A stretch of 23,391 nucleotides of DNA from Parabacteroides sp. (GTDB taxonomy: Bacteria > Bacteroidota > Bacteroidia > Bacteroidales > Tannerellaceae), in assembly GCA_020026285.1 (NCBI GenBank), contig JAHHQS010000050.1, forward strand, positions 1 through 23,391, read 5' to 3'. Made by a program: the position numbers and the translations under genes. Position 1 is the first letter of the stretch. Each line of letters opens with the position of its first letter. The notes below the pieces were generated by a model, which did not search any database, was not told where the DNA came from, and was given only the letters and a program-made list of their open reading frames with translations. Positions 7,003 through 23,391 of the stretch are shown piece after piece.

Positions 7003-7076
7003 GTTTGGATATAAAAGAATGTAATGGACTTGGTTCTTTCGTTCCCGGACTAACACAGGAAGAACGATTCTTCCTA

Positions 7077-7134: not shown

Positions 7135-9264
7135 ATGATATCACTTTATGCTGGATTAATATCCAAGGTGCTTCACATAGCCGAACAGCAGGTCCGGAAT
7201 ACGATAGAACTGCTCGATTCTGGTGCTACCATCCCTTTTATCAGCCGTTATCGAAAGGAAATGACAGGGGGACTGGATGAAGTGCAGATTGCCGATATTA
7301 AAAATAATCTGGATAAATATACCGAACTGAAGGCTCGTAAAGATACTATTCTGAATGCGATTGAGAAACAGGAAATGCTGACTCCGGAACTGAAGGAACG
7401 TATCGAGGCTTCATGGGATAGTAATGAGATTGAAGATATTTATCTTCCTTATAAGCCGAAACGTACAACCCGGGCAGAGATTGCTCGGAAAAAAGGGCTG
7501 GAACCTTTGGCCAAGATGATTGCTGCTCAACGGGATCAATTCCTTGCCGGTCGAGTTCCTTCGTTTGTGAAAGGAGAGGTGAAAGATGAGGAGGACGCTC
7601 TCCAGGGAGCACGTGATATTATTGCCGAATGGGTGAACGAAAATGAACGGGCTCGTAATCAGGTTCGTCTGGCTTTTCATCAGGCAGTGATTTCCGCTAA
7701 AGTAATAAAAGGCAAAGAAGAGGAAGGTGCCAAATATCAGAATTATTTTCAGTTCGAAGAGAAGCTGAACCGTTGTCAGTCTCATCGTTTGCTGGCTGTT
7801 CGTCGAGGAGAAGAGGAAGGAATACTGAGAGTATCCATTGCTCCGGCTGATGATGAAGCCTGTCTTGAATCCCTTTATCGGATTTACAAACGGAATAACG
7901 GTGAATGTTGGGATCAGTATCAGCTGGCTATAAAAGATGCTTATAAGCGTTTGCTTAAATCGGCTATTGAATCGGAATATGCTAAGAGCAGCAAGCTGAA
8001 AGCCGATGAAGAGGCTATTCGTGTCTTTGCAGAGAATCTGCGTCAGCTTTTATTAGCCGCACCTCTTGGACAAAAACGTGTGCTCGGAATAGATCCCGGA
8101 TACAGAACCGGATGTAAAGTTGTCTGTCTGGATGCACAAGGTAATCTTATTCATAACGAGACAATTTATCCGCATCCACCAAAGAATGAACGAAAGAAAG
8201 CCGAGATCAAGATTCAGCATCTGGTGGAGGCTTATGATATAGAAGCCATTTCAATAGGCAACGGAACAGCCAGCCGCGAAACCGAACAATTCATTACAAA
8301 TATCCGGTATACCAAGCCTGTCAAGGTGTTTGTGGTAAGTGAAGACGGAGCTTCTGTGTATTCGGCTTCGGCGGTGGCTAGAGCAGAATTTCCTCAATAT
8401 GATGTAACTGTCCGTGGAGCGGTAAGTATAGGAAGAAGACTGATGGATCCGTTAGCAGAGCTGGTGAAGATTGATCCGAAAAGTATCGGTGTCGGTCAGT
8501 ATCAGCATGCCGTTGATCAGGTTCTATTGAAGAAGAGTCTGGATCAGACCGTGGAAAGTTGTGTGAATATGGTTGGAGTGGATGTAAATACGGCAAGTAA
8601 GGAGTTGTTGACTTATATTTCCGGTTTGGGTCCTTCTTTGGCTCAGAACATTGTCAATTACCGTCAGGAGAATGGTCCGTTTTCAAGTAGAAAGGAATTG
8701 AAAAAAGTGCCTCGTCTGGGAGAGAAAGCTTTCGAACAGTGTGCTGGTTTCCTTAGAATATCGGGGGGAAAGAATCCGTTGGATAATTCGGCTGTTCATC
8801 CGGAAAGTTATCCGATCGTGGAGGCTATGGCTTCTGATTTGAACTGTACGGTGGAAGAGTTAATCAGACAGAAGGATTTAAGACATAGAATCAGGCTGGA
8901 GAAATATCAGACTGAAAAAGTGGGTATGCCTACATTGGAAGACATTATGAAAGAGCTTGACAAGCCGGGAAGAGATCCGCGAAGTGAGATTCAGGAGTTC
9001 AGTTTCAACGAGAATATTCATACAATTGACGATTTGAAGGAAGGTATGGTGCTTCCGGGTATTGTGACCAACATAACGAACTTTGGATGTTTCGTTGACG
9101 TCGGAATTAAAGAGAATGGTTTGGTTCATATTTCTGAACTGGCCGATCGTTTTATAAGTAATCCGGCTGATGTGGTTTCCATTCATCAGCATGTACAAGT
9201 AAAGGTTTTGAGTATTGATACGGCTCGTAAAAGAGTTCAGTTATCGATGAAAGGTATAGAATGA
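7135..9264 (+). CDS. tex: Tex family RNA-binding transcription accessory protein
   Basis: This 709-residue protein has the full Tex order. First comes an N-terminal helical/HTH region to about residue 200 (opening with the typical ATIPFISRYRKEMTGGLDE block). A YqgF/RNase H-like domain starts at about 315, with D320 in GIDPGYRTGCK. A helix-hairpin-helix region lies around 480-560 (ISGLGPSLAQNIV), and a C-terminal S1 RNA-binding domain at about 636-706 (GIVTNITNFGCFVDVG). Tex is a cytoplasmic nucleic-acid-binding protein associated with transcription and RNA metabolism; its precise molecular role differs between reports in the family. Length is slightly shorter than the usual 720-780 residues. 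Its TGA overlaps the ATG of the downstream deacylase, so the two are co-transcribed and probably translationally coupled. Confidence 0.96.
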   Translation: MISLYAGLISKVLHIAEQQVRNTIELLDSGATIPFISRYRKEMTGGLDEVQIADIKNNLDKYTELKARKDTILNAIEKQEMLTPELKERIEASWDSNEIEDIYLPYKPKRTTRAEIARKKGLEPLAKMIAAQRDQFLAGRVPSFVKGEVKDEEDALQGARDIIAEWVNENERARNQVRLAFHQAVISAKVIKGKEEEGAKYQNYFQFEEKLNRCQSHRLLAVRRGEEEGILRVSIAPADDEACLESLYRIYKRNNGECWDQYQLAIKDAYKRLLKSAIESEYAKSSKLKADEEAIRVFAENLRQLLLAAPLGQKRVLGIDPGYRTGCKVVCLDAQGNLIHNETIYPHPPKNERKKAEIKIQHLVEAYDIEAISIGNGTASRETEQFITNIRYTKPVKVFVVSEDGASVYSASAVARAEFPQYDVTVRGAVSIGRRLMDPLAELVKIDPKSIGVGQYQHAVDQVLLKKSLDQTVESCVNMVGVDVNTASKELLTYISGLGPSLAQNIVNYRQENGPFSSRKELKKVPRLGEKAFEQCAGFLRISGGKNPLDNSAVHPESYPIVEAMASDLNCTVEELIRQKDLRHRIRLEKYQTEKVGMPTLEDIMKELDKPGRDPRSEIQEFSFNENIHTIDDLKEGMVLPGIVTNITNFGCFVDVGIKENGLVHISELADRFISNPADVVSIHQHVQVKVLSIDTARKRVQLSMKGIE

Positions 9265-12471: not shown

Positions 12472-13770
12472 ATGCAGAAAATATATTCCCGTTCGATAAG
12501 TAGATGCTTGCTTCTTTTGGCGTGTTGTTTCACTTCTCTAGCTATATTGAAAGCACAGACCGTTTACGAAACAAAAGTCTTCAAACCAAAAAGGATCAAG
12601 ACATTGCAGGTGGTCAAGCCGGATGAAGTATTTACGACTCCCGTCATAACACTGGATAGTGATGAGCAGATACTGATTAATTTTGATGATCTGACACCAA
12701 ACTATACACGATACGCCTATTCCATCATTCATTGTGATGCCAACTGGCAGCAGTCGTCGTTGAGTATGCTCGAATATATGCAGGGATTTCAAGGACTGCC
12801 TATTGAGGATTTTGCGCCATCCTTTAACACAACGGTTCAGTATACCAATTATCAGTTGATGTTGCCGAATGATGAGGTGCAGTTCAAGGTTTCCGGTAAT
12901 TATGTAGTGAAAGTCTATCTGGAAGAAAATCCGGATGATGTCATTTTCACGGCTCGTTTTTCGGTGGTTGAACCGCAGGTGGAAATCCTTTCCGAAATCA
13001 CAGGAAATACTTTGGTCGATACATATCAGAAAAGTCAGCAAGTCAAGTTTACCGTTTTGAAAAAGAATTTCAATATTACTTATCCGCAGACCGATTTGAA
13101 AATTCGTGTGGAACAGAACAATCGAATTGATAATTCGGTTACGAAAGTGATGCCGACAGGTATTCTGAATGATCGTATCTCTTACGATAATTGTAGAGAA
13201 TTGATATTCCCGGCTGGTAATGAGTATCGTCGAATGGAATATCTGACGCATAAATACAATGGTATGCGAGTTGAGGAAATATCTTATTTCAATCCGTATT
13301 ATCATGTGGAACTGACAAAGGATCGTCCGAGCAGTATGGTCCCTTACGAATATGATCAGGATCAGAACGGACGTTTTTATATCGGTTGCAGTCGTTGCGA
13401 CAATGTAGACGTGGAAGCGGATTATTATATTGTTCACTTTGCTCTGGAGATGCCCGAAGCCAAGCAGGGAAAGGTGTATCTGAATGGTGATTTTACCAAT
13501 AATCAGTTTGATGAAAACAGCGAAATGATTTATAATCAGGATACGCAACAGTATGAAAAGGCGTTATTACTGAAACAGGGAAACTATAATTATCAGTATT
13601 TATATGTTCCTGCCGGAGAAAAGGTCGGAAAAACCGGAAGTATTGAAGGTGACTTTCATCAGACAGAAAACGAATACACTATCTATGTTTATTTCCGTCC
13701 GATGGGTGCACGCTATGACCGTCTGATAGGCGTACAGACTACCCATATTCACGGTCATGAAGAAAAATGA
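12472..13770 (+). CDS. Type IX secretion system Plug-domain protein (DUF5103 family)
   Basis: This 432-residue protein has an N-terminal signal peptide (hydrophobic stretch about residues 11-24, likely cleavage after ILKAQ near 29). After it come beta-rich sequences in the order of the T9SS Plug/DUF5103 family: an N-terminal domain (LDSDEQILINFDDL, then YSIIHCDANWQQSSL) and an immunoglobulin-like C-terminal part (GKVYLNGDFTNNQFDENSEM). In Flavobacterium johnsoniae the Plug protein closes the periplasmic face of the SprA outer-membrane channel, so this gene suggests, but does not alone prove, that the organism has a type IX secretion system. No other T9SS gene is in the window. Its stop codon directly touches the stop of the opposing guanine deaminase gene. 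Confidence 0.85.
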   Translation: MQKIYSRSISRCLLLLACCFTSLAILKAQTVYETKVFKPKRIKTLQVVKPDEVFTTPVITLDSDEQILINFDDLTPNYTRYAYSIIHCDANWQQSSLSMLEYMQGFQGLPIEDFAPSFNTTVQYTNYQLMLPNDEVQFKVSGNYVVKVYLEENPDDVIFTARFSVVEPQVEILSEITGNTLVDTYQKSQQVKFTVLKKNFNITYPQTDLKIRVEQNNRIDNSVTKVMPTGILNDRISYDNCRELIFPAGNEYRRMEYLTHKYNGMRVEEISYFNPYYHVELTKDRPSSMVPYEYDQDQNGRFYIGCSRCDNVDVEADYYIVHFALEMPEAKQGKVYLNGDFTNNQFDENSEMIYNQDTQQYEKALLLKQGNYNYQYLYVPAGEKVGKTGSIEGDFHQTENEYTIYVYFRPMGARYDRLIGVQTTHIHGHEEK

Positions 13771-15436: not shown

Positions 15437-16261
15437 ATGTCAGTAGCAAAAAGAGATGATGATAATCGCAAAGTAACAACTCATCGTCTGTTTGAAATGA
15501 AACAACGTGGGGAAAAGATTTCTATGTTGACAGCCTATGATTATTCTATGGCAACATTGATTGATCAATCAGGTATGGATGTTATTTTGGTTGGCGACTC
15601 AGCTTCGAATGTGATGGCTGGAAATACAACAACTTTGCCAATCACTCTTGATCAGATGATTTATCACGGAAGATCTGTAGCAAAGGCTGTAAAGCGTGCT
15701 TTAGTAGTTGTGGATCTGCCTTTTGGTTCTTATCAGGGAAATTCAAAAGAAGCTTTGGCATCAGCAATTCGTGTTATGAAAGAAACACATGCTGATTGTA
15801 TCAAGCTGGAAGGAGGTTCTGAAGTACGTGAATCTATTGAACGAATCTTGTGTGCAGGTATTCCAGTTATGGGACATTTAGGATTGACTCCTCAGTCAAT
15901 AAATAAGTTTGGTACTTATGCCGTACGTGCCCGTGAAGAAGCCGAAGCTGAAAAATTAGTGGCTGATGCCCATTTATTGGAAGATATAGGATGTTTCGCC
16001 CTTGTATTGGAAAAGATTCCTGCAACTTTGGCTGCCCGTGTCGCTCAAGAAATAAATATTCCGGTAATCGGTATCGGTGCTGGTGGTGGAGTAGACGGCC
16101 AGGTTCTGGTTATGCATGATATGTTAGGAATCAATCAGGGCTTCTCTCCTCGTTTCCTTCGTCGATATGCAAATTTGGCCGAAGATATATCACATGCAGT
16201 TCAGCAATATATTGAAGATGTAAAAAGAGGTGACTTCCCTAATGAGAAGGAACAATATTAA
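15437..16261 (+). CDS. panB: 3-methyl-2-oxobutanoate hydroxymethyltransferase (ketopantoate hydroxymethyltransferase)
   Basis: This 274-residue protein catalyses the first step of pantothenate (vitamin B5) synthesis, adding a methylene-THF-derived hydroxymethyl group to 2-oxoisovalerate. Motifs are intact: the [10 protein letters not shown] start of the barrel, metal-binding Asp54 in VGDSASNV and Asp93 in VVDLPFGSY, Glu125 in [15 protein letters not shown], and LVLEKIP carrying the expected catalytic glutamate. It is cytoplasmic and of typical length for the family. It stands apart from panC, panD and panE, none of which is in the window. It has its own promoter with a palindrome and is followed by an intrinsic terminator before the histidine kinase. 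Confidence 0.97.
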
Positions 16262-16296
16262 TAACCTCTTTATTTGAAAATATTATTTCGCTGTTG

Positions 16297-16345
16297 AAAA
16301 GCATATTGATGATCTTGCGTTGTCAATATGCTTTTCTTGTTTTTT
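16297..16345 (+). terminator. Intrinsic terminator between panB and histidine kinase gene
   Basis: A perfect 13-bp inverted repeat (16297-16309 with 16323-16335, AAAAGCATATTGA) with a 13-nt loop is followed by CTTG and six T. It overlaps the upstream in-frame ATG (16328) of the kinase, so that start is unlikely. The kinase start at 16367 lies only about 20 nt beyond, so the kinase depends on readthrough or on a promoter in or very near the terminator. Confidence 0.75.
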
Positions 16346-16366
16346 AATATACTTGAGAAAAATTTG

Positions 16367-18904
16367 ATGTCAGAAAAGGATAGACATATTACTGGTAAGG
16401 TTATTTGGGGCTATTTGTTCTTATTGCTGATGGCTATGGGAGGTGTGGCTTATGTCTATACTGAATTTGAAGAACTCGCAGTTGAAGAAGTATCTCAGTT
16501 CGAAACCAGAAAGAAAACGATTCTGATAACCAATACGCTTTCCATGGTGTATGAGAGTGATGCTTTGAATTATTTTGCCGATTTGGAAAAGAATAATCTT
16601 AACTCTCTGCGTCTGAAATATTATCGGGCAGTGCATAACCTGGATTCTTTGCGAACCATGCTTACTGAAAATCCAATCCAGCAGAAGAAAGTTGATACGA
16701 TTCAATATCTGTTAGAAAGAAAAAAATGGAATACGGTTCAGCTTCTTGAGATTTTGCAGGAATGGAATGGAGGACAGATCTATCTGGATAATATTGAACG
16801 GGTAATTGCTAATCAGGATTCGATATTGCGTTTTAGAAGGAAGGATTCTATACCTCAAAAAATTGTTTATCAGCAACTGATGACGAAACAGGATACAATA
16901 GTCATTCCCAAAATAAAAAAAGGATTTTTCGGTTCATTGGGTGAAGTTTTGTCTAGTAAAGGAGAGACGGATACAACCTGGGTTTTTAATTCGGAGCAGA
17001 AGCTGATTACGGATACGGTAAAAGTGGCCTATAATCTGTCTGATACGATTATTCAGATTTTAAGAACTTTACAGACAACAATGGCTGGTCAGCAGGAAGT
17101 TATGACTAGCAAGCTGTTTGTCCGAGCTAATAATCTGCGATATAATAATACGATTCTTTCCAATCAGATTAATCAGATGCTTCATGATATTGAGAATGAA
17201 TCGGCTCAGGAGTCTATGTTAAGGATGGAGAAAAGGCAGAGTATGTTGAGAGAAACAACTCGTCTGGTCGCTTATATGGGACTGATTATTACTCTTGTCG
17301 CCATAGTATTCCTGGTTATTATAGTTCGAGACATTTCAAAGACCTACTATTATCGTAGGCAGTTGGAGAAAGCGAATGTCTATGCCAGGGAATTACTTAA
17401 TACGCGCGAGAATCTGATCATGACAATCAGCCATGATATTCGTGCTCCTATTTCTTCCATCCTAGGGTTTATAGAATTGTTATTGAAGCGTAATCCGGAT
17501 GAACGTCAGCGTTATTATTTAGATAATATGACAATTTCGTCCAGACATGTGCTTTCTTTGGTTAATGATTTGCTTGATTTCCATCGTCTGGAATCGGGAA
17601 AAATGGAGATTCATCCGGTTCCGTTTTCTGTGTCTAATCTGATAAATGAAATATATACCAGTTTCAAACCGATGGCCAGATCTAAAGGTTTGACGCTCGA
17701 TTTGCAGATTAAACCGGATTTTATGCAACAGACCTATATGGGTGATACAAATAGAATCAGACAGGTTATCAATAATTTGCTTTCGAATGCGATTAAATTC
17801 ACTTCTGAAGGAAGGGTCTTCCTGCATGTAGGAATTCTCGAGAAAGATGAGCAAAACTTTGATCTGGTCGTTACAGTCTCAGATGAAGGTCCGGGTATTC
17901 CTGAGTCGGAAAGAGAACGTATATTCTGTGATTTTGCCCGTTTGGAAGAGGCCCGGCTGGAAGAAGGTTTTGGATTAGGACTTCCCATCACCCGTCGTTT
18001 AGTAAATTTACTGCACGGTACATTGGATTTACATACAGAAGTCGGTATAGGGAGTGATTTTGTGATGACAATTCCGATACCTCTGTCTGAAAATGTTTTA
18101 AATCCGGTAACGGAGGAGGACAAAAAAGAGGCGGATGAGGAGAATGCTACTCCTTCCATTATGGAAAAAGACAGGACTGTCTATTGTCTGTTGATAGATG
18201 ATGATCCTATTCAGCTGGCTTTGACTGAAGAACTGCTTAAACGTAGTAATGTGGAGGTGGTTTGTATTTCAAATCCTCAGGAAGTATTGGATGTTCTTAA
18301 AAACATATCATTCGATGCGGTCATAACCGATATACAAATGCCGGGTGTTAACGGATTCAAATTGTTGAAGATGATACGTGAATCGGGTATAGAAGGAATG
18401 GACCAGGTTCCTGTAATCGCTCTTTCTGCGAGTGTTGCCAACGAATCGGATTATTATAAGGAGAAAGGATTTACGGCCTTTCTGAATAAGCCATTTACAG
18501 CTGTTCAATTGATAAATTTACTGAACAATGTTCTGACAATTCATTTGAAGCCTGTTGTTAAGATGGATTTCTCTACATTAACTGCTTTTGCAGGAGAAGA
18601 TCAAGAAGCCTCTGTTAATATTTTGAAAACATTTTCGGAAGAAACAAGCAAGAGTGTTGATTCTCTCAAAAAGGCATTGGAAAATAAAGATAGAAACGAA
18701 GTTTCCCGTCTGGCACATAAATTAATTCCATTGTTTACAATGATTGGAACAAACAATTTAGTACAAAAACTTCGTATCTTGGAGAAAGATGATGAAGAGC
18801 TTACTAATACGGGCTGGAATGTCTTATTGTCGGATGTTATTGTATGTATTACAGATATAAATAAAAAGACAATTGAAGAATATAAGCAAAGAATGGGGAA
18901 ATAA
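16367..18904 (+). CDS. Hybrid sensor histidine kinase (HisKA-HATPase-REC-HPt)
   Basis: With the ATG at 16367 the protein has 845 residues (the alternative at 16328 lies inside a terminator stem). It has TM1 at about 11-33, a periplasmic sensor region of roughly 265 residues that I do not recognise and which looks mostly helical, and TM2 at about 300-324. A HisKA domain follows with phospho-acceptor His356 in ISHDIRAP, then HATPase_c with N-box N470/N474, DEGPGIP at 506-512 and a GFGLGLPI G-box. A receiver domain has acidic residues 611-613 and phospho-acceptor Asp655 in ITDIQMPG. The C-terminal HPt domain has His784 in LAHKLIP. All phosphorelay residues are present, so it should autophosphorylate and pass phosphate His-Asp-His to a separate response regulator, which is absent from the window. 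A -7-like TATACTTG at 16348-16355 is only weakly convincing. The nearby sigma-54 transporter promoters make an NtrC-type partner plausible (inference). Confidence 0.93.
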   Translation: MSEKDRHITGKVIWGYLFLLLMAMGGVAYVYTEFEELAVEEVSQFETRKKTILITNTLSMVYESDALNYFADLEKNNLNSLRLKYYRAVHNLDSLRTMLTENPIQQKKVDTIQYLLERKKWNTVQLLEILQEWNGGQIYLDNIERVIANQDSILRFRRKDSIPQKIVYQQLMTKQDTIVIPKIKKGFFGSLGEVLSSKGETDTTWVFNSEQKLITDTVKVAYNLSDTIIQILRTLQTTMAGQQEVMTSKLFVRANNLRYNNTILSNQINQMLHDIENESAQESMLRMEKRQSMLRETTRLVAYMGLIITLVAIVFLVIIVRDISKTYYYRRQLEKANVYARELLNTRENLIMTISHDIRAPISSILGFIELLLKRNPDERQRYYLDNMTISSRHVLSLVNDLLDFHRLESGKMEIHPVPFSVSNLINEIYTSFKPMARSKGLTLDLQIKPDFMQQTYMGDTNRIRQVINNLLSNAIKFTSEGRVFLHVGILEKDEQNFDLVVTVSDEGPGIPESERERIFCDFARLEEARLEEGFGLGLPITRRLVNLLHGTLDLHTEVGIGSDFVMTIPIPLSENVLNPVTEEDKKEADEENATPSIMEKDRTVYCLLIDDDPIQLALTEELLKRSNVEVVCISNPQEVLDVLKNISFDAVITDIQMPGVNGFKLLKMIRESGIEGMDQVPVIALSASVANESDYYKEKGFTAFLNKPFTAVQLINLLNNVLTIHLKPVVKMDFSTLTAFAGEDQEASVNILKTFSEETSKSVDSLKKALENKDRNEVSRLAHKLIPLFTMIGTNNLVQKLRILEKDDEELTNTGWNVLLSDVIVCITDINKKTIEEYKQRMGK

Positions 18905-19607: not shown

Positions 19608-19655
19608 TGTCCGTTTTCTGTTATCCGAAAACGGACAAGTGTCCGATATCGTACA
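19608..19655 (+). promoter_or_regulatory. Operator array (TGTCCG-N4-CGGACA type) upstream of permease
   Basis: A perfect 11-bp inverted repeat TGTCCGTTTTC (19608-19618) / GAAAACGGACA (19627-19637) spans 30 bp. Within and beside it are two 16-bp palindromic sites: TATCCG-AAAA-CGGACA (19622-19637) and TGTCCG-ATAT-CGTACA (19640-19655), centres 18 bp apart. The last site ends 45 bp before the sigma-54 -24 element. The same layout occurs before the ABC ATPase gene, so these are likely enhancer sites for one activator. Confidence 0.75.
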
Positions 19656-19700
19656 GTATAGGTGAATACTAAGTGTCAGTAAATAAATGTTTTGGCTTTA

Positions 19701-19715
19701 TGGTACGATTGTTGT
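19701..19715 (+). promoter_or_regulatory. Sigma-54 promoter of permease gene (TGGTAC-N5-TTGT)
   Basis: TGGTAC (19701-19706) and TTGT (19712-19715) are spaced as in the sigma-54 consensus TGGCAC-N5-TTGC, with GG and GT 12 bp apart instead of GG and GC. Predicted transcription start is near 19727, about 26 nt before the ATG. Confidence rests on the matching promoter of the next unit. Confidence 0.65.
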
Positions 19716-19752
19716 AGATAGGATGGAGAAAAATACCTAAATATGAGGGAAG

Positions 19753-22317
19753 ATGATGAAACAATACATCTTACAGGTTCTTGCCCTTATCCGGCAGGAA
19801 AAACTTTTTAGTTCAATTTATATTATCGGTACAGGATTAGCAGTATCGATGGTGATGGTGGTGGCTATTGCACTTAATATACAGCTTGATGACGTTTATC
19901 CGGAACAACATCGTGACAGAATGCTGAAACTTGGGCATACATGGGTGAAATATGAGCATAGTAACCGGACAGGGTATTTTGCAGAACAGACTCTTCGAGA
20001 TGTATTTGCAGAGATGGAAGGTCTGGAAGTCATGACGATTTACCATTCCTCTTCTCCTAAGATAAAATTACACAAAGCTCAATCCTTAGAGAGGGTGGAC
20101 GCCGTTTCCAGAATGGTGGATGCCAACTATTGGAAGGTGTATGATTTTCAGTTTGTAAGTGGTAAACCCTTTACCGAGGCAGATTTTCGTTCGGGTATAG
20201 CTAAGGTAGTTGTAGGCGATGATCTGGCAAAAGAACTTTTCGGTACGATAGAAGTACAAGGCCGGGAGATTACTTTCGACTATAAAACCTTTCAGATTTG
20301 TGGGGTGGTACGTGCCACTTCGCCGTTGGTATCCGGAACTTATGCCCAGCTATGGTTCCCTTATACGGCATGGTCGGGTTATCGGCTGGTGGAGCAGAAT
20401 GCCCCTGTCGGTATGGGTGACTATCAGGCCACTTTACTTGTCCGTGACGATGCCGATATCCAGGCCGTCAAGCAGGAAGGGGTAGAGCGTCTGCGCCGAA
20501 TAGGTCAGGGAGAAAAAGAGGGTATTTACGATTTTCGTGGCCAACCGTGGACCTATATTGAATCGTTGTCGGTTCACCCGCTATATGGTTTAGGTTTACC
20601 AAAGCCCGGGGAATGGTGGGCACGTTGGATGGTCTTTTTTATCGTGTTACTGATTGTCCCGGCTGTCAGCCTTTCAGGAATGACGGATAGCCGTATGGAA
20701 CGTCGTGTGGTGGAGCTGGGGGTACGTCGTGCATTCGGGGCTCCTAGATCTATACTTTTCCGACAGATTTTCATTGAGAACTTTGTCTTCACCCTATTAG
20801 GAGGACTATTTGGTCTGCTGATTTCATTCCTGCTGGCCTATATCTTTAAGGATTGGGTGTTCGACATCTTGCTGGATCCTGTCAAGTATGGGGAGTATGA
20901 GGTCAGCTTCCTGCCGGAGATGTTTTTAAATCTGAAGGTCTTTATTGGAGCTCTGTTGGTTTGTTTTGTTTTGAATCTGCTGACTTCTTTCATTCCCGCC
21001 TGGCGTGCTTCGCGCAGGCAGATTGTGGAGTCGATGAATAGTCAGGCGGGACACGAAGAGGAGGGTTCCTTCTTCCGTAAGCTAAGACAAAATCTTTGGA
21101 TGGGAGTGGAACTGATGCTGGTATTCGGGCTGACCTTGTATGTAACAGATTATTTCCTGACCGATACATTGACACGTCTGCATCCTAATCACCGTTCGTT
21201 CGACCGTACCTGGTGTATTGGTTTCGGTACAGGTTCAGGATACGATTTTAACCCTGAGGGAAAGGCACAGCAGTTACGAGACTTCGAGTTGGTGATTCAA
21301 CAACTTGAAAATGCCGACGAAGTGGAGGCCGTTGGTCTTCCCGAACGGCATTGTGTACCCTGTAGTGGATATATGCATGGCACGTTGGTTTATCTGCCGG
21401 GGGATACTGTGAACTGGAAATCGGTTCGTGAGATAGTTTTCGATCCGCAGGTTGATTTTTTCCGCACCTATGGTTATACTTCGCCGGAAGGTAAACCGCT
21501 TTCGGTCGACGATTTCGACTGGTCGGTCCGTAATGCTACTCTGGTGAGCGAAACGCTGGCTCGGAAGTTCTTTCCCGACGGGAATTCTATCGGGAAAACC
21601 ATCATAGATGATAACAATCGTGAACGGCATATCATCGGGATTGTTGGAGATGTAAAGGACAGGGATTACCTGCGTCCAGAGATGGACTTCTATACTGCCA
21701 ACCCAATGACGGCGCAGAATATCGATAATTTCGGTTCGGTTTGTATTCGACTCAAACCTGGGGTGAATGAGTATGGTTTTGCTGAACGTTTCAAACAAAA
21801 GATATCCGACAGATTACATATAGGTAAATATTTTATGGAGTCGGTTGTTTCCACCTCCGAAATGCAAGAGGAACTTGAAAGGAGGGAAGGATTTACTGCC
21901 CAATCCTCGATGTGCCGTACCTTGATGGGGTACTTCCTGATCAACATACTCCTTTGTGTAATGGGTACGTTCTGGTATCGTATCCGTCGCCGACGTGAAG
22001 AAATCGGTATTCGGATGGCACTGGGGGCAAGTCGCAGGTGTATTGCCCGGCTGTTCATCGGTGAAGGCCTTACCCTTCTTACTTTGGCTGCTATCCCGGC
22101 CATGTTGATTGTCCTCCAACTCATCCTTACCGAAGTAGTGCCGTATGGTTCACCAGATGGAGAACTTTTGATATTAACCGATTACCCGGTACTGCGCTTC
22201 ATCGTCACCCACATCCTTACATGGTTGCTGCTGGCTGGTGTGGTCATCACCGCCATCTTCATCCCTGTAAGTCGTGCAGTACACATATCTGCGGCCGAAG
22301 CATTGCAGGAAGAATAA
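19753..22317 (+). CDS. MacB/FtsX-type ABC transporter permease, fused double permease
   Basis: This 854-residue membrane protein is built as two MacB-like permease units in one chain. The first half has TM1 at about 21-42, a periplasmic MacB core-like region to about 285, then three TM segments (about 288-310, 342-365, 393-420) forming an FtsX domain that contains ELGVRRAFGAPR. The second half repeats this: TM at about 450-470, a periplasmic region, then TMs at about 724-745, 767-793 and 816-842, with EEIGIRMALGASR. MacB-family permeases transmit ATP hydrolysis to periplasmic movements in efflux or lipoprotein transfer rather than passing substrate through the membrane. One fused chain could replace the usual permease dimer. 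It is alone behind its own sigma-54 promoter and presumably uses the ATPase encoded next. The ATG at 19753 gives the same spacing to the LF motif as in the downstream paralogue; 19756 is an alternative. Confidence 0.9.
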   Translation: MMKQYILQVLALIRQEKLFSSIYIIGTGLAVSMVMVVAIALNIQLDDVYPEQHRDRMLKLGHTWVKYEHSNRTGYFAEQTLRDVFAEMEGLEVMTIYHSSSPKIKLHKAQSLERVDAVSRMVDANYWKVYDFQFVSGKPFTEADFRSGIAKVVVGDDLAKELFGTIEVQGREITFDYKTFQICGVVRATSPLVSGTYAQLWFPYTAWSGYRLVEQNAPVGMGDYQATLLVRDDADIQAVKQEGVERLRRIGQGEKEGIYDFRGQPWTYIESLSVHPLYGLGLPKPGEWWARWMVFFIVLLIVPAVSLSGMTDSRMERRVVELGVRRAFGAPRSILFRQIFIENFVFTLLGGLFGLLISFLLAYIFKDWVFDILLDPVKYGEYEVSFLPEMFLNLKVFIGALLVCFVLNLLTSFIPAWRASRRQIVESMNSQAGHEEEGSFFRKLRQNLWMGVELMLVFGLTLYVTDYFLTDTLTRLHPNHRSFDRTWCIGFGTGSGYDFNPEGKAQQLRDFELVIQQLENADEVEAVGLPERHCVPCSGYMHGTLVYLPGDTVNWKSVREIVFDPQVDFFRTYGYTSPEGKPLSVDDFDWSVRNATLVSETLARKFFPDGNSIGKTIIDDNNRERHIIGIVGDVKDRDYLRPEMDFYTANPMTAQNIDNFGSVCIRLKPGVNEYGFAERFKQKISDRLHIGKYFMESVVSTSEMQEELERREGFTAQSSMCRTLMGYFLINILLCVMGTFWYRIRRRREEIGIRMALGASRRCIARLFIGEGLTLLTLAAIPAMLIVLQLILTEVVPYGSPDGELLILTDYPVLRFIVTHILTWLLLAGVVITAIFIPVSRAVHISAAEALQEE

Positions 22318-22325
22318 AGAAATTC

Positions 22326-22357
22326 GGGAAAGCTATAGGCTAAAATAGCAAGTTCCC
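22326..22357. repeat. Hairpin after permease gene, no T-tract
   Basis: GGGAA (22326-22330) pairs with TTCCC (22353-22357) and GCTAT (22332-22336) with ATAGC (22345-22349), loop 8 nt. No run of T follows, so it is at best a weak terminator between the permease and the ATPase promoter. Confidence 0.35.
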
Positions 22358-22379
22358 CACAAGTAACAAACGAAAAAAT

Positions 22380-22427
22380 TGTACGGAGTAAGTATCCGTA
22401 TTCGTACAGGGTGTCCGATTTCGGGCA
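22380..22427 (+). promoter_or_regulatory. Operator array (TGTCCG-N4-CGGACA type) upstream of ABC ATPase
   Basis: TGTACG (22380-22385) and CGTACA (22403-22408) form the ends of a 29-bp inverted repeat that includes the 16-bp site TATCCG-TATT-CGTACA (22393-22408). A second site TGTCCG-ATTT-CGGGCA follows at 22412-22427, centres 19 bp apart. The last site ends 45 bp before the -24 element, exactly as before the permease. Confidence 0.75.
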
Positions 22428-22472
22428 TACTCTTATGAAGATAAAAAACTGATATATAGTATATTATGATTT

Positions 22473-22487
22473 TGGCACAGTTCTTGC
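22473..22487 (+). promoter_or_regulatory. Sigma-54 promoter of ABC ATPase unit (TGGCAC-N5-TTGC)
   Basis: TGGCAC (22473-22478), five bases, TTGC (22484-22487) is an exact match to the sigma-54 -24/-12 core. Predicted start is near 22499, about 38 nt before the ATG at 22537. Confidence 0.85.
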
Positions 22488-22536: not shown

Positions 22537-23202
22537 ATGATTAAGTTATCAAGAATCAATAAGGTTTATCGTACAGATGAAGTAGAAACACAGGCATTAG
22601 AGAATGTGAATCTGGAAGTGAAAAAAGGTGAGTTTTTGAGTATTATGGGACCATCTGGTTGTGGAAAGTCTACACTTCTGAATATTATGGGATTGCTCGA
22701 TGCTCCTACAAGTGGAACCATTGAAATTAATGGAACGAACGTGGATGGTATGAAAGACAGCGAACTGGCTGCTTTCCGAAATCGGACACTTGGCTTCGTC
22801 TTCCAGTCTTTCCATCTGATAAACTCGCTGAATGTATTGGATAATGTGGAACTTCCTTTGTTGTATCGCAAGGTCAGTGCGAAGGAACGCCGCGAACGTG
22901 CCCGTGAAGTGTTGGAAAAAGTAGGTTTGTCGCATCGTATGCGCCATTTCCCGACACAGCTTTCCGGCGGTCAGTGCCAGCGTGTAGCCATTGCTCGTGC
23001 CATTATCGGCAATCCGGAGATTATTTTAGCCGATGAGCCAACGGGTAATCTGGATTCAAAGATGGGAGCAGAAGTAATGGAAATCCTTCAGCGCCTGAAC
23101 AAAGAAGATGGTCGTACCATCGTGATGGTGACTCACAATGAAGCTCAGGCTAAACAAACACAACGCGTAGTTCGCTTCTTCGATGGTCGTCAGGTGGAAT
23201 AA
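22537..23202 (+). CDS. ABC transporter ATP-binding protein (MacB/LolD type)
   Basis: This 221-residue stand-alone nucleotide-binding subunit has Walker A GPSGCGKST (38-46), Q-loop Gln90, signature LSGGQ (142-146), Walker B IILADE (162-167) with EPTGNLD following, and switch His200 in VTHNEAQA. Sequence and length fit the MacB/LolD/FtsE group that powers FtsX-domain permeases at the inner membrane. It opens a sigma-54 unit and is followed after 18 bp by a permease gene. The upstream permease has no ATPase of its own, so this subunit may serve several permeases. Confidence 0.95.
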   Translation: MIKLSRINKVYRTDEVETQALENVNLEVKKGEFLSIMGPSGCGKSTLLNIMGLLDAPTSGTIEINGTNVDGMKDSELAAFRNRTLGFVFQSFHLINSLNVLDNVELPLLYRKVSAKERRERAREVLEKVGLSHRMRHFPTQLSGGQCQRVAIARAIIGNPEIILADEPTGNLDSKMGAEVMEILQRLNKEDGRTIVMVTHNEAQAKQTQRVVRFFDGRQVE

Positions 23203-23220: not shown

Positions 23221-23391
23221 ATGATTCAGTTATATTTCAAGCAAGCCTGGACACTGATGAAGCAACATCGGCTGTTCACTTGTATTTATGTACTGGGAAC
23301 GGGATTATCTATTGCCTTTTCGATGGTGTTAATCATCGTTCTCTACATGAAGTTTGCACCTATTTATCCGGAATATAATCGGGATAAGATT
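23221..23391 (+). CDS. MacB/FtsX-type ABC permease, 5' part only (cut by window end)
   Basis: The first 57 codons are present and the frame runs off the window. The start MIQLYFKQAW, followed by a TM segment with IYVLGTGL and then IYPEYNRDK, aligns with the N terminus of the permease at 19753 (IYIIGTGL, VYPEQHRDR), so it is a paralogue. It lies 18 bp after the ATPase stop with a purine-rich GGAAGGA before the ATG and is surely in the ATPase operon. Confidence 0.9.
   Translation, partial: MIQLYFKQAWTLMKQHRLFTCIYVLGTGLSIAFSMVLIIVLYMKFAPIYPEYNRDKI

Follow-up and report, generated by a model that had tools for sequence, protein, structure and literature searches.

NtrC-, NifA- and PilR-type enhancers work with IHF-assisted sigma-54 promoters, and NifA sites are paired upstream palindromes of TGT-N10-ACA form. 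The Bce module, another regulated transporter system, combines an OmpR-type regulator with a 10-helix BceB-type permease. In Bacteroidota, the literature we searched holds little on sigma-54 targets and activator operators. One paper reported that sigma-54 sites are enriched ahead of COG0577 (FtsX) permease genes in Bacteroidia, predicted sigma-54 control of these permeases, and presented itself as the first with evidence for the FtsX-like family (PMC12316311). Here we analyze a contig of Parabacteroides sp. (JAHHQS010000050.1; the whole stretch of 23,391 nucleotides is called the window) that carries two copies of one arrangement: tandem TGTNCG-N4-CGNACA palindromes followed by a -24/-12 element. 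We put the probability that the two sites serve one exporter circuit as its sigma-54 promoters at roughly 85%. The best reading of this circuit is a mostly local two-component/sigma-54 switch for a MacAB-TolC-like exporter.

Read directly, both -24/-12 elements are of the TGGCAY-N5-TTGY type, with the invariant GG and G (Table 1). The palindromes of a pair start 18 bp apart at promoter 1 (19622/19640) and 19 bp apart at promoter 2 (22393/22412), and at both promoters the last palindrome ends 45 bp before the T of TGG. A first-pass annotation of this DNA had reported these coordinates, sequences and distances, and all were right to the base, as were the upstream half-sites that close inverted repeats of 29-30 bp. 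The window holds two palindrome pairs followed by a sigma-54 element, versus none in 300 dinucleotide shuffles, which also contained no palindrome pairs alone; these composites are not chance. The strict palindrome pattern by itself, at up to 3 mismatches, is weak evidence, with 10 matches versus 5.15 expected, a number that 3 of 100 shuffles reached.

The same arrangement recurs in relatives. A single scan of genome contigs, with an alignment of permeases as query, matched 60 loci, at no more than 42% identity over long segments. These are chiefly from Bacteroidales (14 Parabacteroides, 10 Tannerella or Tannerellaceae, also Porphyromonas, Proteiniphilum, Bacteroides and others), together with five Ignavibacteria/Kapabacteria, one Holophagae and three weak actinobacterial matches. 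Tandem palindromes were found again in many of the 60 loci, mostly with a sigma-54 element downstream. When two palindromes followed by a sigma-54 element were counted as a composite at any gap of 5-139 bp, there were 41 non-redundant composites in 2.99 Mb (185 records, some overlapping, the window included), versus 0, 0, 0, 0, 0 and 1 for six control palindromes. A wider count, with later loci added and up to 4 summed mismatches allowed, produced 70 rows, of which 57 have phased gaps. The 13 rows left out had gaps outside 43-46, 52-56 and 62-66 bp (18, 24, 31, 32, 36, 51, 75, 95, 97, 123, 132 and, twice, 136 bp). Four of the phased rows are second readings of counted promoters, which leaves 53 unique promoters, the two of the window among them. 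The palindrome lies 43-45 bp from the -24 box in 29 of these and 52-55 bp in 24, two classes about one helical turn apart. Gaps of 63-64 bp were measured from a third palindrome farther upstream; the distribution thus has two peaks and not three. With fixed, phased gaps in 53 promoters and controls at 0-1 versus 41, the link of the palindromes to -24/-12 elements, which the first-pass annotation had set as a check, held up; the tandem sites lie upstream at a non-random distance, as NtrC-type enhancers do. Upstream half-sites occur within 40 bp 5′ of 13 of the 53 promoters, versus 2.4 on average (maximum, 9) in mononucleotide shuffles.

The genes behind these promoters are mostly those of exporters. 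Taken as the longest frame starting within 450 nt after the promoter, the first gene encodes HlyD (26 promoters), TolC (12), an ABC-ATPase (7) or an FtsX/MacB permease (4) in 49 of the 53. By eye, two of the four unassigned first genes are permease-like (L187) and TolC-like (L197), one reaches the contig end (L193), and one is another kind of protein (L201). A pattern with a single palindrome and a sigma-54 element gave 29 matches in 15 of 17 genomes of relatives, versus 1 for a backwards control; at least one of the 29 (G008:C22:25409) looks coding.

A quite different explanation is that the palindromes are the operators of an unrelated repressor, or that their activator uses a sigma-70-type promoter, the -24/-12 match being incidental. 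Palindromic operators are common, and the -24/-12 consensus is short enough that by itself, at up to 2 mismatches, it matched the window 22 times versus 12.25 expected. Against this stand the locking of both elements at two helix-phased distances in 53 promoters and the sigma-54 interaction domain of the regulator in locus L018. The outcome of a search by palindrome pairs alone, with the sigma-54 term left out, also argues against it. This search found 21 places, 19 of them taken as loci, and a sigma-54 element lies at 43-45 or 52-54 bp in 15 of the 19; the other two places (L207 and L212) have one at 53-54 bp. We therefore consider a repressor or a sigma-70-type promoter highly improbable.

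A further element accompanies the sigma-54 promoters. Of 47 Bacteroidota promoters, 37 carry, exactly 19 bp ahead of TGG, a sequence that agrees in at least 7 of 9 positions with the consensus WATCARNNNNTTR, which we take to be that of IHF; mononucleotide shuffles give 1.0 such promoters on average (maximum, 5). The L201 promoter is not among the 47 and scores 8/9. With one promoter per locus and the loci of the palindrome scan left out, the element is present in 21 of 26. For strong sigma-54-like elements that precede an open frame, it accompanies 51 of 62 with a palindrome versus 2 of 17 without one (Fisher p about 1.4e-7; a further element, whose palindrome has 2 mismatches, was excluded). 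Matches to the HU/IHF family number 4 to 17 per genome in the eight genomes searched. The element is a candidate bending site for a DNABII protein. It could instead be an extended sigma-54 recognition sequence or the site of a second regulator: its position is rigid and near the polymerase footprint, a bending protein at -19 is putative, and the promoters of Ignavibacteria/Kapabacteria do without it (scores of 2-3 of 9 in all five). The match to the IHF consensus, the rarity of the element where palindromes are lacking and the HU/IHF-family matches speak for bending, and we give the alternative appreciable but minority weight.

Which activator would read the palindromes can be judged from the relatives. 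The 17 genomes gave at least 88 activator matches that reached 195 bits, and 83 pass a length and motif filter; stretches L162, L165, L173, L175 and L177 hold no protein that passes. The filtered activators and those in the first loci, 97 distinct proteins, were placed in a quick tree. There, 34 NtrC-type regulators form a clade (Shimodaira-Hasegawa-like approximate likelihood ratio test, 99) with a member in each of the 17 genomes. A paired composite accompanies 26 of the 34 clade members versus 3 of the 63 others (Fisher p about 2e-13; the rows are not independent). For 27 of the 34, the fetched stretch also carries a TolC gene, and the distance between a composite and a clade regulator is in many cases no more than about 15 kb. 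In several mapped loci, such as L017, L036, L054 and L097, the order is HlyD, permeases, ATPase, permeases, TolC, regulator and kinase. The L018 regulator combines a receiver, the sigma-54 interaction domain and a Fis-type helix-turn-helix (HTH), and sigma-54 itself is encoded in 17 of 17 genomes. The sigma-54 contact loop of the clade, to which the L018 regulator (15760-17130) belongs, reads GAFTDA in 26 members, GAFTGA in 7 and GAFTNA in 1; loops of other activators read GSFTGA, GSFTSA and GSFTDA. The GAFTGA motif has been called invariant (PMC12316311).

The first-pass annotation proposed that one activator, encoded outside the window, controls both transporter units, and probably more members to the right, through sigma-54. 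Relatives usually carry the regulator in the same cluster, in agreement with a place to the right of the window, and the regulator of the window, expected to have an HTH like GNLSHVATALGISRAALYRRLEKY, is probably encoded just outside it beside tolC and a kinase gene. Within the window, neither an activator with a sigma-54 interaction domain and a Fis-type HTH nor rpoN is visible; sigma-54 control of the transporter unit is supported by comparison, through the phased gaps, the exporter genes downstream and the single NtrC-type clade. A different, unlinked activator might read the sites, for example one answering to the hybrid histidine kinase at 16328-18904, or a global NtrC-like factor. This kinase, with receiver and weak Hpt domains, is encoded 0.7 kb upstream of promoter 1 in a window without an activator of its own, and the expected regulator is inferred from relatives only. 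Moreover, locus L189 has a palindrome pair beside an activator with a different HTH. However, the hybrid kinase has neither a DNA-binding nor a sigma-54 interaction domain in Pfam, and the composite is rare on stretches outside the clade, where its three carriers (L157, L158 and L164; gap, 54 bp) likewise have TolC or ATPase genes linked to them. An unlinked activator is thus improbable in our judgment.

Several observations weigh against a circuit of this kind. Promoter 1 reads TGGTAC, with T for the C found in 52 of the 53 promoters, and the IHF-like element is weak at promoter 2 (6/9) and absent from the Ignavibacteria/Kapabacteria promoters. Many of the 53 promoters come from related clusters and hence are not independent. 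No full-length homologue of the window permease above 43% identity is among the matches listed, and the window's own regulator is unseen. Eight of the 34 clade members lack a paired composite on the stretches examined, although three of them (L115, L098 and L100) have a single palindrome, 44-46 bp from a sigma-54 element. Since 15 of the 34 clade rows come only from loci fetched for their permease, a fairer count takes the activators of the 17 genomes on their own stretches, exporters disregarded: 13 of 19 versus 3 of 63 (p about 3e-8). Four palindrome-pair loci have no phased element. Two of these (L202 and L203) neighbor activator and HlyD genes and one (L185) a permease gene; the fourth (L189/L215) has a perfect palindrome pair with no sigma-54 element nearby and an adjoining activator whose HTH is unlike that of the clade.

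The sensor is suggested by the kinases next to the regulators. An intramembrane-sensing kinase has two membrane helices, a very short linker and no other outside input domain. By hydropathy, 10 of 11 chosen kinases of relatives have two hydrophobic N-terminal helices nearly back to back, and L050 has one; the L018 kinase has PAS and HATPase domains. These kinases fit the intramembrane-sensing type, judging by their sequences; no two-helix kinase is visible within the window. In the circuit we propose, such a kinase, which has hardly any loop in the periplasm, would signal damage to the envelope or the activity of the exporter. An NtrC-type response regulator would then bind both tandem palindromes and form an AAA+ oligomer, which DNA bending at the IHF-like site just 5′ of the -24 box would bring onto the sigma-54 polymerase at the promoter. 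Over so short a distance, the palindromes would have to keep a fixed helix face (43-45 or 52-55 bp). With the promoter opened by ATP hydrolysis, the cell would make the fused permease, the ATPase and the next permease, presumably as inner-membrane parts of a MacAB-TolC-like exporter. Since the tolC-regulator-kinase unit of relatives often has the same promoter, which stands ahead of TolC in 12 cases, the circuit is probably self-amplifying.

How local the circuit is varies among genomes. Composites also lie elsewhere in G001, G008 and G011, which weighs against a strictly local circuit. So does G404 (L207-L212), where at least eight near-identical palindrome pairs are spread over several contigs and several precede ATPases and permeases of about 800 amino acids; at a gap of 53-54 bp, this is a broader variant with the same operator. 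In a 7-Mb genome (L201 and L204, 9584), a perfect palindrome pair, a sigma-54 element 52 bp from it and an IHF-like element (8/9) stand ahead of a gene for a repeat-rich, apparently secreted protein rather than an exporter component. One palindrome pair is flanked on both sides by sigma-54 elements in L186 and L188, where HlyD follows in one direction and TolC in the other, and in L094 of Porphyromonas (7033-7071) divergent elements lie 55 bp to each side. In these three cases, one pair appears to serve two divergent promoters, at the same or almost the same distance from each.

The first-pass annotation also suggested that the palindrome itself could be used to find the whole regulon. This did not work with the palindrome by itself: exact single copies were near background (3, 5 and 4 versus 2, 4 and 4 for a backwards control), and those inside the exporter cluster numbered 3 of 5 in G013, 2 of 3 in G002 and 0 of 4 in G003. 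Scans for tandem palindromes found 7 of 123 genomes of the family and 3 of 395 of the phylum; these are lower bounds, as exact matches were needed at both sites. An order-wide scan (49 of 295 genomes, gaps of 32-62 bp) was rejected as a prevalence figure; the backwards control matched about 25 genomes, and many of the matches had other gaps and were coding-like.

The promoters lead into the transporter genes listed in Table 1. Pfam cut-offs for the MacB_PCD and FtsX permease and the MacB/LolD-type ATPase are passed, and NCBIfam equivalog cut-offs are not. An NCBIfam search with the 57 residues of the last permease (23221..23391) gave no hit; an adaptor and a TolC partner are present in clusters of relatives, and none is visible within the window. 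A palindrome copy with 1 mismatch at 22773-22788 has no matching partner site and was set aside as a putative coding coincidence, given its position inside the ABC ATPase gene. Elsewhere in the window, a protein at 12472-13770 has a type 9 secretion plug as its first domain and is adjoined by an amidohydrolase gene. A 709-amino-acid protein at 7135-9264, presumably Tex, is 73-75% identical to its counterparts in eight Parabacteroides genomes (G001-G007 and G009) and 69-70% to those in G008, G010 and G011, which places the window in a Bacteroidales organism beyond the sampled species. Searches of the window with Rfam (gathering thresholds) and ARAGORN found no match.

Table 1. Regulatory elements and transporter genes at the two window promoters
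Feature	Position	Strand	Remarks
Upstream half-site TGTCCG	19608..19613	+	Left arm of 30-bp inverted repeat 19608-19637
Distal putative activator palindrome TATCCGAAAACGGACA	19622..19637	.	
Proximal putative activator palindrome TGTCCGATATCGTACA	19640..19655	.	
IHF-consensus-like element	19682..19694	+	8/9 informative positions; starts 19 bp 5′ of -24 box; putative binding protein
Sigma-54 -24/-12 element, promoter 1, TGGTACGATTGTTGT	19701..19715	+	
Fused (duplicated) MacB_PCD/FtsX permease	19753..22317	+	854 amino acids; start 37 nt past promoter 1
Upstream half-site TGTACG	22380..22385	+	Left arm of 29-bp inverted repeat 22380-22408
Distal putative activator palindrome TATCCGTATTCGTACA	22393..22408	.	
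Proximal putative activator palindrome TGTCCGATTTCGGGCA	22412..22427	.	
Weak IHF-like counterpart	22454..22466	+	6/9; under count threshold of 7
Sigma-54 -24/-12 element, promoter 2, TGGCACAGTTCTTGC	22473..22487	+	
ABC ATPase, MacB/LolD type	22537..23202	+	221 amino acids; start 49 nt past promoter 2; under NCBIfam equivalog cut-offs
Further FtsX-type permease, 5′ part	23221..23391	+	Truncated by window end; by eye against permease alignment consensus

Together, these results provide an exact operator, a clade of probable activators, a candidate bending site and a spacing rule with naturally occurring steps of one helical turn, all of which can be tested in Parabacteroides or Proteiniphilum species. 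L186, L188 and L094 offer cases where one palindrome pair appears shared by two divergent promoters. More tentatively, and with a broad version of the idea seeming to us unlikely as a whole, this may be a widespread envelope-defence module of Bacteroidota and their neighbors. In it, an intramembrane kinase would sense the load or activity of a MacB-like exporter and signal to an NtrC regulator, mostly of the GAFTDA type. Through helix-phased twin operators and an IHF-like bend, exporter and regulator would be co-induced, in a sigma-54 counterpart of Bce flux sensing.

Compared with the NtrC, NifA and PilR systems, the circuit shares an activator made of receiver, AAA and Fis-type HTH domains (seen in relatives), paired TGT-N10-ACA palindromes and a candidate bending-site consensus between enhancer and promoter. 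It differs in the inner CCG/CGG specificity, in two short helix-phased distances common to distant lineages, in a contact loop that is mostly GAFTDA (26/34) and in having an exporter as target. Like MacAB-TolC, the clusters of relatives hold an HlyD-type adaptor, a MacB_PCD/FtsX permease, a LolD/MacB-type ATPase and a TolC-type outer protein. Unlike MacAB-TolC, ATPase and permease are separate genes, there are arrays of several permeases (nine in L018), and the window permease is a fused protein of 854 amino acids. The resemblance to BceRS-BceAB lies in the kinase, which in relatives is encoded beside an FtsX-type ABC transporter and has a very short loop between its two N-terminal membrane helices. 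The regulator, however, is NtrC-type with sigma-54 and the permeases are MacB-type; with neither a BceB-type permease nor an OmpR-type regulator, the system at most works like Bce. The first-pass annotation called the regulon undescribed. The permease class, the class Bacteroidia and the sigma-54 promoter are all shared with an earlier prediction (PMC12316311), in whose passages on COG0577 permeases we found neither an activator or operator nor an enhancer geometry, a bending site or a kinase. Among open-access titles and the starts of abstracts, we found no paper describing the operator or its regulator. What is added here is the operator, the activator clade, the phasing, the bending-site candidate and the type of kinase.

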